A stretch of 64,000 bases of DNA from Micrococcales bacterium (lineage in GTDB: Bacteria > Actinomycetota > Actinomycetes > S36-B12 > GCA-2699445). The notes beneath the pieces were generated by a model, which saw only the letters and a list, made by a program, of their open reading frames with translations, did no database searches and was not told the DNA's origin. Each line of letters begins with the position of its first letter. The stretch's first letter is position 1. Shown piece after piece: positions 35,420 to 46,866 of this stretch. The DNA is taken from assembly GCA_002699445.1 (NCBI GenBank), contig PAAU01000020.1, forward strand, positions 1 through 64,000. The letters run 5' to 3'. The translations under genes were made by a program, and so were the position numbers.

Positions 35420-35738
35420 ACTCGATCTCCTATCGCGCGATCGTGTGGATTGCCGACTACGGCGAACCAGCGCAATTACTCTTAGTCTCTTGTGTCACGA
35501 CTAGTAACGATGATCACCCCTACCGTACGTAGCGAAACCGAGTCAGCCAACACTGAGAGTGAGATATCGGTCACACTTGTACCGCCACGGGTCTTAACAG
35601 CCGCCTCGGATACCCCCTGAATGCCAGCGCTCATCGTTCGCATAGTGATCTTGGTCTGAGCGAGATCGACTTCACTGGCTTCGTACCGGTGGTCGGTCGC
35701 AGTGTCGGCGACTGTTATCGTGAATCATCCTTTAACCA

Positions 35739-35764
35739 GTCGTCCTGTGAGGCGGCGAAGGAGG
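35739..35764 (+). promoter_or_regulatory. Candidate PyrR-binding RNA hairpin (35739-35756, hexaloop CUGUGA) abutting pyrR Shine-Dalgarno GGAGG (35760-35764)
   Basis: GTCGTC-CTGTGA-GGCGGC folds as a 6-bp stem (two G-U pairs) with a loop matching the PyrR consensus UCCNGNGAGG. Confidence 0.7.
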
Positions 35765-35774
35765 TGGGCCAGCC

Positions 35775-36335
35775 ATGCCCGAACCTGCAGTAGGCCCAGT
35801 CGTACTCGACGCCGCGGACCTCAATCGTGCTCTTACTCGCATTTCGCACGAGATCATCGAATCTGCCCGAGGTGCGGATGACCTCATCATTCTTGGCATC
35901 CCGACCCGAGGCGCCGTATTGGCGCATCGTCTTGCCGAACGAATCTCAGCCGCCGAAGGGCTCGCAGTTCCCTCAGGGTCAATCGACATCACCATGTATC
36001 GCGATGACCTCAATATGCGGCCGGCTCGAGCACTGGGCCACACTGTCATTCCTTCCCGAGGGGTTGATGGCAAAACCGTTGTCCTCGTTGACGATGTGCT
36101 TTTTTCGGGTCGAACAGTTCGAGCGGCTCTGGATGCGATTAACGATATTGGCCGACCGAGAGCGGTGAGATTGGCCGTCATCGTGGATCGGGGCCACCGA
36201 GAGTTACCGATTCGAGCCGATCATGTAGGGAAAAATCTGCCCACTCATCGTGGTGAAAGTGTGCGGGTTCGCTTGTCCGAAATCGATGGACAAGATGAAA
36301 TCGTGTTGTTGCGGGACGCGGAAAAGCAGTCATGA
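35775..36335 (+). CDS. pyrR: Bifunctional pyr operon regulator / uracil phosphoribosyltransferase
   Basis: [37 protein letters not shown]. Confidence 0.96.
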
Positions 36336-37285
36336 TCGAGCATCTGCTGTCGACCGCGGACCTCAGCCGTGATGATGCAGTTTTGATTCTGGATACCGCA
36401 GGGGAGATGGAGAATCTCACCGACCGCTCGGTAAAAAAGTTGCCCGCTTTGCGCGGACGCACTGTCGTCAACTTATTCTTCGAAGACTCCACCCGGACCA
36501 GGATCTCGTTCGAAGCCGCTGCGAAGAGATTGTCCGCTGACGTCATTAACTTCAGCGCCAAGGGTTCGAGCGTGTCCAAAGGAGAATCTCTAAAAGACAC
36601 AGCTCTGACCTTGCAGGCTATGGGGGCAGACGCGGTTGTGATTCGCCATGGGGCTTCGGGAGCTCCCATGCGCTTGGCCAGTGCCGGATGGATCGATGGA
36701 GCAGTGGTTAACGCGGGCGATGGTACCCATGAGCACCCAACGCAAGCCCTGTTGGATGCCTACACGATTCGTCGTCACTTGTGTGGCGGCTCAGGGGACC
36801 TAGCAGGGCTACGGGTCACTATCGTCGGCGATGTCCTGCACAGTCGGGTAGCGCGATCTAACGCGTGGTTACTGCACACTTTGGGAGCGCAGGTGACCCT
36901 AGTGGCCCCACCTACTCTCGTTCCGGTTGGTGTCGATTCCTGGCCAGTGACTGTTTCCTACGACCTCGATACCGTGCTCCCGGAAACGGATGCAGTGATG
37001 ATGCTGCGAGTTCAGGCCGAAAGGATGAACGCTGATTTCTTCCCTAGCACTCGGGAATACTCTCGTCGCTACGGTCTTGATGCTCAGCGTGCGGCTCTGC
37101 TGCCGCAGCGCTCCATCATCATGCATCCAGGTCCCATGGTACGCGGTATGGAGATTAGCGATGACATCGCGGATTCCGATCGAGCGGTGATCTTGGAGCA
37201 GGTCAGCAACGGGGTAAGTGTCCGGATGGCAGTGCTATACCTACTGGTGGGCGGCTCGCGTGAGGGAGCAGGAGAAACATCATGA
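36332..37285 (+). CDS. pyrB: Aspartate carbamoyltransferase catalytic subunit
   Basis: [25 protein letters not shown]. Confidence 0.96.
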
Positions 37286-38580
37286 CTGAGGAATATCTCC
37301 TAACGGGTGCTCGGCCGCTGGGTGGTGACCCGAGCGATATTTGGCTGCGAGATGGTCGGATTTCTCAGATCTCTCCGGCAGGTCAGCTCTCTGCCCCAGA
37401 TGCAGAGTTGATCGATGCCAAAGGGCTTGTCGCACTGCCTGGTTTGGTAGATCTGCACGCTCACTTGCGTGAACCAGGTCGGGAAGATGCTGAAACAGTA
37501 GCCACTGGGACCGCTGCTGCCGCGCTAGGTGGTTTCACAGCGGTACATGCCATGGCTAATACTGATCCGGTTGCAGATACGGCGGGCGTTGTGGAGCAGG
37601 TTTATCGGCTGGGGCAAGCGGCCGGTTACTGCGATGTGAGACCTGTCGGTGCGGTGACAGAAGGTTTGGCCGGAGAGCATTTGGCTGAACTGGGTGCCAT
37701 GGCTGATTCCAGTGCGGCCGTTCGTGTCTTCAGCGATGATGGCCACTGCGTTTCTAACTCGCTGCTTATGCGGCGAGCTTTGGAATATGTCAAAGCTTTT
37801 GACGGGGTGATAGCTCAACATGCCCAAGATCCAGATCTGACAGTTGCCGCTCAGATGAATGAAGGCAAGATGTCGGCACAACTTGGGCTACAGGGTTGGC
37901 CCGCCGTAGCAGAAGAAGCGATCATTGCCCGTGACGTACTGCTCGCGGATCATGTGGGATCTAGACTCCACGTCTGCCACGTGTCGACCGCTGGCAGTGT
38001 TGACCTCATCAGGCGCGCGAAAGAGCGAGGTATCCAGGTGACGGCGGAGGTCACGCCGCACCATTTGCTGCTGACCGATGAACTAGTCGCTGGGTACGAT
38101 CCAGTTTTCAAGGTGAATCCACCGCTTCGGACCGAGGCTGACGTGATGGCGTTACGCGAAGGCTTAGCGGACGGCACGATCGATGTCGTTGCCACCGATC
38201 ACGCACCGCACACTGGTGAGGATAAAGACTGCGAGTGGGCGGTGGCTGCGTTCGGCATGGTCGGGCTGCCAACCGCCCTGTCGGTGGTCCTGGCGACGAT
38301 GGTGGAAACCGAATTGCTGAATTGGCAGGGGGTCGCGGAGCGTATGTCCGTGGTTCCAGCTCAGATTGGTCGAGTAAATGACCAGGGTCGGCCATTGGCC
38401 GAAGGGGAGCCCGCGAACCTCGTGCTTTTTGATCCCGAGGCCCGTTGGACGGTGGATCCGGGTATCTTTCCAGGAGCTTCGCGCAACAGTCCCTTTAAGG
38501 AGATGGAGTTGCCCGGTCGTATCGTGAGTACTTTCTATCGCGGCACCTCGACCGTTCGAGGCGGGGAGTTGCAGTGGTAA
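37282..38580 (+). CDS. pyrC: Dihydroorotase
   Basis: [28 protein letters not shown]. Confidence 0.96.
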
Positions 38581-39125
38581 CTGCGCTCAGCGAACAGGCG
38601 GTGGTCACCGATTGGCCAACTCGTCTTTTGTTGACCGGAGCTACAGCCCTAGTCATAGTCTTCGCGCTTCTACTTCTGCGTAGAGGTTGGCGTCGCCGGG
38701 GAAACCGCCAAGAGTGGGCTGCCTTGCCAGAGGTTATTCAGTCATCGGCCTTGGCCGATGCCATATCGGGAAAGTACATCGGCACCGTACGAGCCGGCGA
38801 CTGGTTAGATCGAATTGTTGCAGGCGGTGCGATGGCCCGTTCCGCAGTGTCGCCGACGAAAGCCGGCCTCCTCCTCGATCGAGAGGGTGAACCGGCGCTG
38901 CTAATACCAGCAGCGAAAATCGAGGCCGTAGAGACTGCCCCGGGCATGCTGCAGAAGGTCTTCGGAGGACACGGCATCGTGGCGGTCACCTGGACTTGGG
39001 GCCAATCTAAAGTAGTAACCGGGATTTGGTTTGCTGATCCAATCGATCAGCAGTCAGTCATTGGGTGGATTGACGACTACGTGGGTAAACCGCCGGAAGC
39101 TCCGGTGCAGAGGGAGGATTCGTGA
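38574..39125 (+). CDS. PH-like domain membrane protein of the actinobacterial pyr operon
   Basis: N-terminal [48 protein letters not shown]; position between pyrC and carA. Confidence 0.7.
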
Positions 39126-40258
39126 TGAGCGAAGCAACGGAAGCAGTGTTGATGCTCGAAGATGGCACCTGTCTTCGAGGTCGCAGTTACGGTGCCGAGG
39201 GGGAGACGTTTGGGGAGGCTGTCTTCACGACGGGAATGACCGGATACCAGGAGACGTTGACTGACCCGTCCTATCACCGCCAGGTGGTAATCCAGACTGC
39301 GCCACATATAGGCAACACCGGCATGAACGATGAAGATGCCGAGTCCCGTCGTATCTGGGTATCGGGGTACGTGGTGAGAGATCCAGCGCCGCGATCGAGC
39401 AACTGGCGGTCTCGACGGGAACTCGTTGACGATCTTGCCGGTTCTGGCGTTGTGGGGATCAGCGGCGTCGATACTCGCTCGCTCACTCGACATTTGCGTG
39501 ATCGGGGGGCTATGCGAGTAGGTATCTTTTCGGGTGATCGGGTATCGAGTGAGACTGAACTACTCGCCCGCGTTCAGTCCAGCCCGAAGATGACTGGTGC
39601 CAACCTCACCGCGGATGTGACGACCCCACAGCCTTACGTGATTGAGCCCGACGGAGATCCGATCGGGACTGTAGCGGCTGTAGATCTGGGAATAAAAGCT
39701 ATGACTCCGCATCGGATGGCCCAGCGTGGACTCCGAGTCCACGTATTACCAGCGTCGATTAGTAGTGAGGACTTGCTTGCCACAAACGCGGATGGGTACT
39801 TCCTCTCGAATGGGCCAGGCGATCCAGCGACAGCAGATCATGCGGTTGATCTGGTCAACTCAGTGCTGTCCGCAGATCTACCGCTGTTTGGCATCTGCTT
39901 TGGCAACCAGGTTTTCGGCCGGGCACTAGGGCTATCGACATACAAACTTAAATTCGGTCATCGTGGGATTAATCAGCCGGTCCTCGACAAAGCCACTGGA
40001 CGGGTAGCAGTAACCGCACACAACCACGGGTTCGCGGTTGACGCCCCACTTGAAGGAAACTTTGCCACGCCCTACGGTCAGGCAGCGGTCAGTCACGTCT
40101 GCCTCAATGACAACGTCGTCGAGGGTCTTCGCTTGCAGAATGGTCGCGCCTTCAGCGTCCAGTACCACCCGGAAGCAGCGGCCGGTCCGCACGATGCCGC
40201 CTATCTCTTCGACAGATTCACCGATCTAGTCCAGGGAGGACGCAATGCCGCTGCGTGA
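39125..40258 (+). CDS. carA: Carbamoyl-phosphate synthase small subunit
   Basis: [38 protein letters not shown]. Confidence 0.95.
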
Positions 40259-43200
40259 AGATATTTCCTCAATAATGGTGATCGGGTCCGGCCCGATTGT
40301 TATCGGTCAGGCCTGTGAGTTTGATTATTCCGGTACTCAGGCTTGTCGGGTACTCAAGGCAGAAGGACTGCGCGTTGTCCTGGTCAACAGCAACCCGGCC
40401 ACGATCATGACTGACCCAGAGTTTGCTGATGCGACCTACGTTGAGCCGATCACGATAGATGTCTTGGAACGGATCATTGCCAAAGAGCGTCCGGACGCTT
40501 TACTGCCTACCTTAGGTGGCCAAACCGCGTTGAATGCGGCGACTGCCCTAGACCGAGCGGGCATCCTAACGAAATACGACGTGGAACTCGTCGGTGCAGA
40601 CATTGATGCGATTGAACGGGGCGAGAATCGTGAAGAATTTCGCGAAATTGTGGCCTCCATCGGAGCGGAGTCAGCACTCAGCCGGATCTGCCACACTCTG
40701 GATGAATGTCTTGCGGCAGCGGAAGAGTTGCACTACCCGGTTGTCGTGCGTCCGTCGTTCACCATGGGCGGGGCAGGGTCGGGATTTGCGTATGACCCCG
40801 ATGGTCTGCGGCGGATTGCGGGGGCCGGACTCATGGCCAGTCCTACCACCGAAGTTTTGCTCGAGGAATCTATTCTCGGATGGAAAGAGTACGAACTGGA
40901 GTTGATGAGAGATAAGCACGACAACGTGGTGGTCGTTTGCTCGATTGAGAACCTCGACCCCATGGGTGTACACACGGGTGACTCCATCACTGTGGCGCCG
41001 TCGCTCACCCTCACCGATCGCGAATACCAGCGATTGCGTGACATTGGTATCGACATCATCCGTGCCGTGGGAGTCGACACGGGTGGCTGTAATATTCAGT
41101 TCGCAGTCAACCCAGCCGATGGCAGAATTATCGTCATCGAAATGAATCCACGTGTCAGTCGGTCCAGCGCTCTAGCAAGTAAAGCCACGGGCTTCCCGAT
41201 CGCCAAGATTGCCGCTCGACTCGCAGTCGGCTACACCCTTGATGAGATCCCGAACGACATCACTGCGGAAACTCCGGCTTCTTTCGAACCGGCACTGGAC
41301 TACATAGTGGTGAAAGTGCCACGGTTCGCCTTCGAGAAGTTCCCCGGATCCGACGAAGTGCTAACTACCACTATGAAGAGTGTTGGCGAGGCTATGGCGA
41401 TTGGCCGAAACTTCACGGAAGCGCTGCAAAAGGCGTTGCGATCCTTGGAACGACCCGAGGCTCAGTTCTCTTGGGTAGGTCAGGCGCCCACCGACTATGT
41501 CGCTCTGCTGGAAGAGGCCAGGATCCCGCGCGATGGCCGCTTGCGACTCGTACAACAGGCCCTCTGGGGCGGAGCCAGCGTCGAAGAAACCCATAGTGCT
41601 ACCGGAATCGATCCTTGGTTCCTCGACCAGATCGCTGTGCTCAATGACATTGCCAACCGGATGGGCAGCGCCGGAGTCCTCCGAGAGGATCTGGTAGCCG
41701 AAGCTAAGCGGCACGGCTTTTCAGATGCTCAGATTGGGGGAATCGTAGGTTTGCCAGAGCCGGTCGTGCGGGGAGTACGGCAAGCATTGGGAATTCGGCC
41801 GGTCTATAAGACCGTGGATACCTGCGCGGCAGAGTTTGCGGCTCGGACCCCGTACCACTACTCCAGTTACGACAGCGAAACTGAGGTTGAACCGGGCGAG
41901 CGGCGAAAGGTCATGATTCTCGGTTCTGGACCGAATCGCATCGGTCAAGGTATCGAGTTCGACTATTCCTGTGTGCACGCGGCGCTCACCCTGCGAGAGC
42001 AGGGGTACGAAACGATCATGGTCAACTGCAATCCAGAGACTGTTTCGACCGATTACGACACTTCAGATCGACTGTATTTCGAGCCACTGACCCTTGAGGA
42101 TGTTCTCGAGATCTATCACGCAGAGAGTCAGACTGGTGAGGTTGTCGGAGTCATCGTTCAGTTAGGCGGTCAAACTCCGCTGGGGTTGGCTCAGTCGCTG
42201 AAGGACCTCGGTCTACCGGTGGTGGGTACGCCACCAGAATCAATCCACCTGGCCGAGGAACGTGGAGCCTTTGGGCGGGTCCTGGCGGAAGTCGATCTTC
42301 CCTCGCCCAAACATGGAACCGCCTTTTCCTTCGAGGAGGCCAGCACAATCGCCAATGAAATTGGGTACCCGGTTCTGGTTCGTCCATCGTATGTTCTGGG
42401 TGGTCGAGGAATGGAAATCGTCTACGACGACGAGATGCTTGCCGGGTTCTTGCAGCGGGCTACGGAACTGAATCCTGACCATCCGGTACTCGTGGATCGT
42501 TTCCTCGACGATGCGATTGAGATAGACGTCGACGCGCTCTTCGATGGTGAGGAGTTGTACCTGGGCGGCATCATGGAACATATCGAGGAGGCCGGAATTC
42601 ACTCCGGCGATTCCGCGTGTTCGCTGCCCCCTATCACTTTGGGACCGGCGGAAGTGGACCGTATTCGACGTTCCACACAGGATCTAGCGGCCGGTATCGG
42701 GGTACGCGGTTTGATGAACATTCAATACGCGTTGTTTGGCGATGTTTTGTATGTTTTGGAAGCTAACCCGCGCGCCTCTCGGACAGTGCCCTTTGTCTCT
42801 AAAGCGACAGCTGTGCCGCTGGCAAAAGCAGCAGCACGAGTAATGATGGGGGAGTCGATCGCTCAGCTACGAGAAGAAGGTGTCTTGCCCCGCGAGGGTG
42901 ACGGGGGGTCGCTGCCTATCGGATCGCCGATTGCAGTGAAGGAAGCAGTATTACCGTTTGGACGCTTCCACGGAGTCGATACCGTGCTAAGTCCAGAAAT
43001 GCGTTCCACTGGTGAAGTGATGGGGATTGACTCCTCATTTGGAACTGCCTTTGCTAAGTCGCAAGCAGGCGCCTACTCCGGCGGATTACCCAACTCCGGT
43101 CGGGCTTTGGTCAGCGTCGCGAATCGTGATAAAAGAGCTATGATTTTTCCGCTCAAACGGCTCGCCGATTTGGGCTTCGAGATCCTGGCGACCGAGGGAA

Positions 43201-43538
43201 CTGCTGAAATCCTTCGTCGCAATGGTCTAAAGGTCGGTCTAGTGCGAAAAAATCGGGACGGTGCGGGTCCGAATGGGGAGCCGACGACGGTGCAAGCGAT
43301 CATGTCTGGCGATGTAGATCTTATCGTGAACACTCCGTTCGGTGTTGGCACGCGGTTAGACGGCTATGAGATTCGAACCGCTGCAGTGACTCGAGGAGTA
43401 CCGTGCATTACTACTACTGCTGGACTGGCCGCTGCCGTTCAAGGGATTGAGGCGCAGCGAGATTCCGAAATTGGAGTGCGCTCGCTACAAGAGCACGCCT
43501 CCGATATTGAAGCGCTACGTAGACAGGAGTTCGGGTGA
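40245..43538 (+). CDS. carB: Carbamoyl-phosphate synthase large subunit
   Basis: 1097 aa, two ATP-grasp halves ([40 protein letters not shown]). Confidence 0.97.
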
Positions 43539-44368
43539 GCCAGGCGGGCCAATGGACCGCCACGGTGATGGCCAGGCGAGACACTGGTGACTACGCGGTA
43601 GTCACGTTATCTGCTGGAACTGACACCTCAGCTGCGCGGGCCGGACAGTTTGCGTCGGTACGGGTGGCAGGTCCGGATTCTGCGCTATTACTTCGGCGGG
43701 CGATGTGGATCGGAGAAGCCACCTCGAGTGGCCGCGACGGTGGCACAATCGAGGTTGTCGCTGACCGCGGTGAGCCAGGTGGCGCGTGGTTGGCAGCTCA
43801 GCCTCAGTCCGCCCGAGTGGATGTGATTGGACCATTAGGTCGCCCCTTTTCGTTGCCACGGGATCCGACCCACTGCCTGTTGATTGGATTTGGAGCCGCA
43901 ACGGCAGCCTTAGTGAAGCTGTCTGAAGAACTCGTTGCCCGCGGCTGCCGAGTGAGATTCTTGCTTTTGGGTCAAGCTGCGGCTTTCGGTGTGTTAGCGG
44001 CCCGTCGGTTCAGTTCCGAAATCGTCGATAGCTCCGGCCGATCCATTGACCCGCGTGAGGCTGTGCTCGATCAACTCGATGACTCGGTGGAGGTCGTGTA
44101 CTCCGCGGGACTTGCAGAGCAGCTGCGTCCGTTGGGTCAGATAGTGACTGAAATGGGGGTGGCGCATCAGACTGCGGTTGAGACGCCATTGGTATGCGGT
44201 AGCCGCACCTGCACCTTGTGCGCCCTTCCAGTGCGAGGACGCGACGGTGTCACCCGTATGGTTCGTGCGTGCACGGAAGGGCCGGTATTTCGAGCTGACT
44301 TAGTGCGCTGGGATGACCTCGGTACGGTTCCTGGCGATTGCCTGGGCGCGGGTGAGGAGGCTCGATGA
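43535..44368 (+). CDS. pyrK: Dihydroorotate dehydrogenase electron transfer subunit
   Basis: Ferredoxin-reductase-like; C-terminal [12 protein letters not shown]...C Fe-S cysteines. Confidence 0.88.
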
Positions 44369-45291
44369 CTGACGCGGTCGATCTTGCTGGTCAACTTTTC
44401 GCTAACCGAGTCTTCGCGGCAGCGGGGTGCGCAGGAACCGGTCGGGAGTTACCCCCACAGGCCGATTTAGCTGGATTGGGCGCAGTCATCACTCGGAGCA
44501 TTACCCCGGAGGCACGCGCTGGACTAGCCGCACCACGGCTAGCTGAGACACCAAGCGGACTTGTCAACGCCTTGGGGCTACCAGGTCCTGGAGTTGAGGG
44601 TTTTCTCGCTGACGAGTTGCCCTGGCTCGTTGAACACGGTGCGGCGGTCATCGTGTCGATCGCTGCCGAATCTGCTGCGGATTATGCGCGTCTAGCGCAG
44701 CGGCTACGCCAGGTCACGGGAATTGTTGCGGTAGAGGTCAACTTATCTAATCCGGTGACGGATTCTGGACGACTGCCGGTTGCCATGGACGCTGGCCTAG
44801 CAGGTGGCGTAGTTCATGCTGTTCGTCGTAACACGGCGGCTGGAATTCCAGTTCTTGCCAAGTTGGCGGGGGATACCACTGACGTTGTGGCGGTTGCGAG
44901 GGCATGCGCTGGCGCGGGCGCCGACGGTGTCTCCTTGATTAATGCGGTGAGAGGTATGGGAATCGATGTGGCTACCGGACAGCCGTCATTGGGTGCTTGG
45001 CTAGGTGGGCTTTCGGGCCCAGCGATAAAGCCGATTGCCTTGCGCGCGGTGTGGGAAGTGCATGCTGCCCTACCCGAGCTCCCGATCATTGCAAGTGGTG
45101 GAGTGCGGACCGGAACCGATGCAGCCGAGATGATGATGGCAGGTGCAAGTGCCGTTTCTATCGGTACCGCGTTGCTCACGGACCCGGCCGCGGGGGCTCG
45201 CATTCGAGAAGAACTAGCGGTGATCGCTGCCCAGCGCGAGGGCGGGTATGCGGGCCTTCTAGGATGCGCACATCGGGAGGTCACGGCATGA
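44365..45291 (+). CDS. pyrD: Dihydroorotate dehydrogenase, class 1B type
   Basis: VEVNLSNPVTDSG, LAKLAGDTTDVV, IASGGVRTGTDAAEMMMAGA; pairs with pyrK. Confidence 0.92.
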   Translation: MTDAVDLAGQLFANRVFAAAGCAGTGRELPPQADLAGLGAVITRSITPEARAGLAAPRLAETPSGLVNALGLPGPGVEGFLADELPWLVEHGAAVIVSIAAESAADYARLAQRLRQVTGIVAVEVNLSNPVTDSGRLPVAMDAGLAGGVVHAVRRNTAAGIPVLAKLAGDTTDVVAVARACAGAGADGVSLINAVRGMGIDVATGQPSLGAWLGGLSGPAIKPIALRAVWEVHAALPELPIIASGGVRTGTDAAEMMMAGASAVSIGTALLTDPAAGARIREELAVIAAQREGGYAGLLGCAHREVTA

Positions 45292-45983
45292 CGTCAATCA
45301 ATGGGCTCGCGGTGGCCCTCGACACTGTGACAGTCGAAGAGGCAAGTGATTGGGCTGCAGCTGTAGCCCCGCACGCTGAACTCATTAAGTTAGGTTTGGA
45401 GTTTTTTCTGCGGAATGGGGCCGTCGGAGTGGCCACCGTCAGAGAGGCGGCACCAGACTGTGGTCTCTTTCTGGACCTAAAGCTGCACGATATCCCTGCG
45501 ACAGTCGCGGGTGGGGCTCGCGCCGTGGCAGCTTTGGAGCCGGAGGTGTTGACCGTCCATGCGGCTGGCGGTGCCGATATGGTGACGGCCGCCGCCACGG
45601 AACTCCCGAATACAATTATTGCCGCGGTCACTGTCCTGACGTCGCTCAGCGCTGCAGATCTGGCGGAACTCGGAGTGCCTGACTCAGAAACCCTAGTTCC
45701 ACGTTGGGCCACGACAGCAGTATCGGCAGGCGCGCGGGCAATCGTTTCCTCGGCTCGCGAAGTGGCAGCTATCCGTGCGGCAGTAAAGCCCGAAGTGGCA
45801 TTGATCACCCCAGGAATCCGACCTTTGGGTGCGAGCAGCGACGATCAGGCTCGGGTGGCTACTCCGAAGCGAGCAATCGAGGCAGGGGCCAATGTTCTTG
45901 TTGTAGGTCGTCCGATCACGCAAGCGGTTGATCCAGCACAAGCTGCGGCGGCCTTAGCTGCTGAGATCAGAGACGCGCGATGA
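45288..45983 (+). CDS. pyrF: Orotidine 5'-phosphate decarboxylase
   Basis: VALDTVT, LFLDLKLHDIPATV, TPGIRPLG; ATG 45288 overlaps pyrD stop. Confidence 0.94.
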   Translation: MTSINGLAVALDTVTVEEASDWAAAVAPHAELIKLGLEFFLRNGAVGVATVREAAPDCGLFLDLKLHDIPATVAGGARAVAALEPEVLTVHAAGGADMVTAAATELPNTIIAAVTVLTSLSAADLAELGVPDSETLVPRWATTAVSAGARAIVSSAREVAAIRAAVKPEVALITPGIRPLGASSDDQARVATPKRAIEAGANVLVVGRPITQAVDPAQAAAALAAEIRDAR

Positions 45984-46312
45984 GTGCAGATAAACGTCCA
46001 CCAATCATCAGCGAGCAGCAGCGGGCCGTTGGTAGGCAGGCTGCCGTTGCGGGGCGTCGGTTGCGAGCAACGCTAAAGCAGGAACTGCGACAGGGGCGCA
46101 TTGAGTTCGAGGACATCTTGCGAATAGCGCGACGCGACGATGAGCGGGGTCGAGCTGCGATCCGACTGCGGGTGGGAGAAGTTCTCCTAGCCTTACCGGG
46201 GATGGGACCGGCGCAAGCAGAACAGCTGTTAGCCAGGACTGAAATCAGTGGGCAACGTCGGATCGGTCAACTGGGTGAACGGCAGCGGGAACGCTTGGAA
46301 TCTGGACTATGA
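45980..46312 (+). CDS. mihF: Actinobacterial integration host factor (mIHF)
   Basis: RRLRATLKQELRQGRIEFEDILRIARRDD...ALPGMGPAQAEQLL; upstream of gmk. Confidence 0.93.
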   Translation: MSADKRPPIISEQQRAVGRQAAVAGRRLRATLKQELRQGRIEFEDILRIARRDDERGRAAIRLRVGEVLLALPGMGPAQAEQLLARTEISGQRRIGQLGERQRERLESGL

Positions 46313-46866
46313 CTGGTCGCCTCATTGTCATTAGCGGCCCATCCGGGGTAGGTAAGGGAACGGTGATCGCCGAAATACTTCGACGTCGACCAGATATTTG
46401 GCTCTCCGTTTCGACCACAACGCGTGTGCCTCGGCCTGGCGAACAGGATGGTCGTGAATATTTCTTTGTCTCCGAGGAAAAGTTCACTGAGATCATCGAG
46501 AACAGGGGGTTTCTGGAATGGGCCCGCTACGCCGGTAACCTCTACGGCACCCAACGCGATCCTGTGGCTCAACGTAAGTCAGTGGGAACTTCAGTGTTAC
46601 TAGAGATCGATTTGGCGGGCGCCCGGCAAATTCGTCGAAATGATCCGGATGCCTTGCTGGTATTTATTTCACCGCCTGATGAGGAGGAGTTAGAGCGTCG
46701 GCTGCTCGGTCGGGGCACTGAATCGTCCTACGTGGCGCGGGATCGATTGGCGCGAGCCAAGGATGAAATTGCTGCTTCTGGAGAGTTCGATCGGGTCTTG
46801 GTGAACTCGGAGGTATCGGCAACTGCAGATGAGTTGCTAGCATGGTGTGAAAGCTCAGGAGCCTGA
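46309..46866 (+). CDS. gmk: Guanylate kinase
   Basis: VISGPSGVGKGTV; STTTRVPRPGEQDGREYFFVS. Confidence 0.96.
   Translation: MTGRLIVISGPSGVGKGTVIAEILRRRPDIWLSVSTTTRVPRPGEQDGREYFFVSEEKFTEIIENRGFLEWARYAGNLYGTQRDPVAQRKSVGTSVLLEIDLAGARQIRRNDPDALLVFISPPDEEELERRLLGRGTESSYVARDRLARAKDEIAASGEFDRVLVNSEVSATADELLAWCESSGA

Follow-up and report, generated by a model that had tools for sequence, protein, structure and literature searches.

In the Thermus pyr leader, the PyrR site reportedly covers the ribosome-binding site that serves a leader ORF. In Mycobacterium smegmatis, Fields and Switzer are said to have found a PyrR loop before pyrR, no attenuator, and the first ribosome-binding site as the target. 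PyrR-dependent translational repression has been reported in this species (Fields and Switzer, 2007, J Bacteriol 189:6236), and this work is cited in later papers (PMC13328217, PMC6455119, PMC12369341, PMC10672894). UMP is established to strengthen, and PRPP to weaken, the binding of PyrR to RNA (summarised in PMC12369341). PyrR sites and two actinobacterial families were covered by a comparative study (PMC3766115). The locus described below was analysed in a 64,000-nucleotide stretch of DNA (the window), in which a hairpin before pyrR is very likely, judging from its sequence and conservation, to act as an autogenous translational operator for the pyr operon.

Organization of the pyr operon

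The genes of the operon and the matches used to name them were as follows.

35775..36335, plus strand, pyrR, UMP-responsive regulator / uracil phosphoribosyltransferase (NF003547, 8e-82, above cut-off)
36332..37285, plus strand, pyrB (ATGA overlap with pyrR)
37282..38580, plus strand, pyrC (ATGA overlap)
38574..39125, plus strand, bacterial PH-domain-like protein gene (PF25362, 5.6e-23)
39122..40258, plus strand, carA (GTGA overlap)
40245..43538, plus strand, carB (14-nt overlap)
43535..44368, plus strand, pyrK-like dihydroorotate dehydrogenase electron-transfer subunit (PF10418; NF000797 below cut-off)
44365..45291, plus strand, pyrD, type 1B-like dihydroorotate dehydrogenase (NF005574, 5.2e-87)
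45288..45983, plus strand, pyrF (NF001273, 4.3e-64; ATGA overlap)
45980..46312, plus strand, mihF, actinobacterial integration host factor (NF041260; ATGA overlap)
46309..46866, plus strand, gmk, last gene of the overlapping chain (TIGR03263, 2.4e-64; ATGA overlap)

Each of the ten junctions between pyrR and gmk is an overlap, in eight cases of the ATGA or GTGA kind; the original prediction that the chain of overlapping genes extends through pyrF, and perhaps through mihF and gmk, was borne out. The gap between gmk and rpoZ is 70 nt. The PH-domain-like gene is joined to pyrC and carA, between which it sits, by overlapping codons, and a bldD-type regulator gene (NF050110, 34931-35419) is divergent from the operon. 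Structures matched by the window PyrR in the PDB were 1w30, 5iao and 1non, and the protein retains the blocks aligned with the Bacillus, Mycobacterium and Thermus PyrR structures.

Leader and putative promoter

No full consensus promoter was found in a sigma-70 scan. A putative -10 box was assigned from its conservation in homologues.

35716..35721, plus strand, putative -10 box TATCGT, starting 12 nt before the hairpin

Of 72 distinct homologues, 64 have a TANNNT motif 12-30 nt upstream of the hairpin, where shuffles would give 9.7 (sd 2.6). Transcription is predicted to start at about 35727-35728, so that the leader (about 48 nt) would begin at the hairpin. No terminator-like site was detected in a scan of 35420-35800, in agreement with the original prediction that no terminator lies between hairpin and gene. 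An upstream ORF from the GTG at 35720 was considered and rejected; it lies ahead of where transcription is predicted to start and is not in the pyrR reading frame.

Structure of the hairpin and pairing of the Shine-Dalgarno sequence

The elements of the hairpin, which spans 35 nt (35728-35762), and the evidence for each are listed below.

35728..35733, plus strand, 5' arm of the lower stem P1, TCCTTT, the anti-Shine-Dalgarno (anti-SD) arm (RF00515 alignment, MFE fold, pair probabilities, covariation)
35734..35738, plus strand, one-sided internal bulge of 5 nt, AACCA (RF00515 alignment, MFE fold)
35739..35744, plus strand, 5' arm of the upper stem P2, GTCGTC (sequence, MFE fold, homologues, covariation)
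35745..35750, plus strand, hexaloop CTGTGA, which fits CNGNGA (sequence, homologous hairpins)
35751..35756, plus strand, 3' arm of P2, GGCGGC (sequence, MFE fold, homologues, covariation)
35757..35762, plus strand, 3' arm of P1, GAAGGA, overlapping the Shine-Dalgarno (SD) sequence (RF00515 alignment, MFE fold, pair probabilities)
35758..35764, plus strand, pyrR SD AAGGAGG, with five of its seven bases inside P1 (sequence, pair probabilities)

The upper stem and hexaloop had been described correctly in sequence and position, as had the loop-region string TCCTGTGAGG (35743-35752), the GGAGG at 35760-35764 and the ATG at 35775. The extent of the hairpin had been captured only in part, since the lower stem (35728-35733 with 35757-35762) and the 5-nt bulge were missed. 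The SD had been placed 4 nt beyond the structure, which must be corrected: the hairpin reaches 35762, and the SD is largely contained in it because the 3' arm of P1 holds most of AAGGAGG. The predicted PyrR site thus shares bases with the ribosome-binding site of pyrR, the first pyr gene, and the ATG follows 12 nt past the SD arm. All parts of a PyrR binding loop are present: the consensus loop, the bulge and both stems.

The same lower stem, bulge and upper stem were obtained from the MFE fold and from the alignment to RF00515. Two of the six P2 pairs are G-U. In the predicted leader (35727-35800), lower-stem pair probabilities were 0.78-0.89, and the unpaired probability was 0-0.12 for the SD bases AAGGA and 0.42 and 0.89 for the final GG. 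The hairpin energy was -11.0 kcal/mol, of which -6.0 was contributed by the upper stem. Compared with shuffles this fold energy is not unusual (z 0.17); it was therefore dropped as evidence, and the case for the hairpin rests on conservation.

Specificity of the site

Across the 2.4-Mb genome, the loop consensus TCCNGNGAGG is matched exactly 81 times and a reversed control 46 times. By itself it is expected 3.5 times by chance in a random 64-kb window and was for this reason dropped as sole evidence. A composite of loop, upper stem, lower stem, SD and start codon occurred once in the 64-kb window and in none of 200 Markov-random windows. With a covariance model, a single site was recovered genome-wide up to E = 10, namely the pyrR hairpin (E = 1.1e-9).

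No match was returned by an Rfam scan of the window at the gathering threshold. In a permissive scan, RF00515 (PyrR binding site) aligned to 35728-35762, including the SD arm, over model positions 4-37 of 115 only; the match (24.3 bits against a gathering score of 54) falls below threshold because the terminator half of the model is absent here. On the minus strand, Ms_IGR-2 gave a sub-threshold match (14.5 of 45 bits), which was discarded as chance level.

Conservation and covariation

PyrR protein similarity was the sole basis for collecting loci, of which 30 came from nearby genomes (including that of the window) and 80 from named genomes. The hairpin was present just upstream of pyrR in all 110 loci, a set that includes at least five fetched twice from the same genome and that holds 73 distinct hairpin sequences. 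The loop consensus was exact in 105 of the 110 pyrR loci and had one mismatch in the other 5; the CNGNGA hexaloop was found in 73/73 distinct hairpins. In aligned homologues the bulge starts with AA and is 3-6 nt long. The pyrR start codon lies 0-15 nt past the SD arm in 107/110 loci, and the median probability of lower-stem pairs 2-5 was 0.89 (108 loci).

Several pairs vary among homologues with pairing retained: C-G, G-C, A-U and U-A at P2 pair 2; C-G, U-A and G-C at P2 pair 3; U-A and C-G at P1 pair 1, as in UCCUU:AAGGA versus CCCUU:AAGGG in Brachybacterium. The lower stem of Arthrobacter is shifted (CCUUUU:GAAAGG). On alignment A1 the covariation score was 0.168, compared with 0.109 for shuffles (0/500 as high) and 0.080-0.120 for slid controls, and both sides had changed in 7 of the 12 pairs. 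Shorter hairpins are placed out of register in the lower stem by MAFFT, so a second count of pairs used a register fixed by the loop and TTAA. When changes were mapped on the PyrR tree, at least 8 changes of state were counted at P2 pair 2, at least 4 at P2 pair 3 and at least 12 at P1 pair 1, U-A/U-G switches included. The check proposed at the outset was whether relatives conserve the loop and stem; they do, with covariation in both stems.

Distribution in Actinomycetes

With covariance model R1, the element was detected in 390 of 396 Actinomycetes genomes (120/122 genera) and in 196 of 297 genomes across the phylum. All 50 R1 matches whose position was compared with that of PyrR were on the same strand, 13-134 nt upstream of the PyrR homology. 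Three of the six class genomes with no R1 match also lack PyrR (G012, with a match of 4e-4 only; G034 and G650, with no match). In a fourth (G651), the PyrR match is in two pieces behind a leader with a terminator; in a fifth (G553), a tandem double loop was missed by the model. The sixth (G621, locus L220) has an intact-looking pyrR with no recognisable hairpin upstream.

Two R1 matches, some 4-16 kb apart, are often found in genomes of one family (f14). The extra hairpin precedes carA in all six two-copy genomes examined (L226, L228, L229, L231, L233, L234), and these carA copies have the same AAGGAGG arm with the start codon directly behind. A hairpin upstream of a CarA-like frame was also seen in a genome of another class (L195, family f47). 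The element thus accompanies pyr genes, including carA in some genera, and not one coding sequence, which speaks for a role in regulating pyrimidine synthesis.

Tandem CNGNGA loops before one SD were observed in two separate lineages (L014 and L041, of the family of the window genome, and L219, in G553). They are seemingly contained within one lower stem; the two loops are shown uncleanly by MFE folds. Tandem PyrR loops could allow cooperative binding. In a limited literature search, no open-access account was found of how the element is distributed over the class, of its carA copies or of the tandem loops.

Proposed mechanism and alternatives

PyrR very probably grips the hairpin and so covers the ribosome landing site. 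At high UMP, PyrR-UMP would bind the loop and bulge and lock the lower stem; the anti-SD arm UCCUUU would then hold the SD bases AAGGA, and the 30S subunit could not initiate at pyrR. At low UMP and high PRPP, PyrR would release the hairpin, and the ribosome would open the lower stem, which is weak at about 5 kcal/mol. With five of the seven SD bases paired within the hairpin, repression would be by direct sequestration and not only by a neighbouring roadblock. Since the free RNA is itself predicted to close the lower stem (pair probability about 0.9), the site would be partly shut beforehand and PyrR would do no more than adjust it. Repression of pyrR would be passed down the operon to gmk by translational coupling, which is made possible by the overlap, mostly ATGA or GTGA, at every junction; spread along the operon may be aided by Rho or mRNA decay.

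The best surviving alternative extends this last step: after a block of translation, mRNA decay or Rho-dependent termination would make the transcript level carry most of the regulation. The length of the operon and its polar coupling make this plausible, but block of the SD would still be required as the first step, and we consider it improbable as the main account. It is less probable still that the hairpin is independent of PyrR and acts alone as a translational silencer or as a metabolite or temperature sensor. In its favour, formation of the lower stem is predicted without protein, but the loop and bulge fit the PyrR recognition consensus (CNGNGA in every distinct hairpin), the hairpin occurs at pyrR and carA, and it is absent in the three sampled genomes without pyrR. 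Transcription attenuation of the Bacillus type, in which bound PyrR favours a downstream terminator over an antiterminator, shares a binding loop identical in kind and occurs as hairpin plus terminator, at the Rfam gathering score, in four sampled loci of other classes of the phylum, but is very unlikely here given the lack of a terminator-like site in 35420-35800, the short predicted leader, which opens with the hairpin and has the start codon 12 nt after it, and the failure of all 14 class loci scanned to reach the RF00515 gathering score. Translational repression by PyrR at the SD, as originally predicted for a PyrR-type hairpin at the head of a long coupled operon, fits the sequence evidence better than attenuation.

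Comparison with known systems

Beyond the class Actinomycetes, 28 R1 matches were sampled. Behind some of them pyrR starts directly after the SD. In others the SD is followed by a short ORF within a leader of 50-210 nt, and several of these have a terminator before pyrR. Loci with a leader ORF, as in Thermus, were L180, L181, L183, L185, L187, L204, L205 and L214. The phylum seems to have two modes of PyrR control that use the same hairpin, because at the Rfam gathering threshold the four terminator-type loci were recognised and, in the same scan, none of the 14 class loci. A broader reading is slightly favoured on balance: the SD-embedding hairpin would be a near-universal pyr operator of Actinomycetes, around which PyrR control in the phylum has diversified (block of the pyrR SD, carA copy, tandem loops and, in other classes, leader ORF or terminator), with translational and transcriptional control interconverting by what follows the SD. 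The presence of direct-block and terminator forms in one phylum makes the evolutionary relation between attenuation and translational control directly testable.

The element has a close counterpart in RF00515 and the Bacillus pyr attenuator, with which it shares a 35-nt loop with lower stem, one-sided bulge, upper stem and CNGNGA. In contrast to these, it has no terminator or antiterminator half, and its lower-stem arm doubles as the SD; it is missed by the standard RNA library because the model there includes the Bacillus terminator. As in the Thermus pyr leader, a PyrR hairpin lies over a ribosome-binding site, but the start that would be blocked in the window is that of pyrR itself and not of a leader ORF. 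Translational repression by PyrR is already known from M. smegmatis, with which the window shares a PyrR loop before pyrR, no attenuator and, as predicted here, the first ribosome-binding site as the target. The window adds an uncultured lineage of Actinomycetes and differs from the M. smegmatis report in that the SD pairing and covariation were followed across the class, from sequence only. An observation in a single species is thereby extended to a prediction for the whole class, with a precise model of the base pairing: in nearly all sampled Actinomycetes, PyrR acting at the ribosome-binding site should set pyrimidine synthesis.
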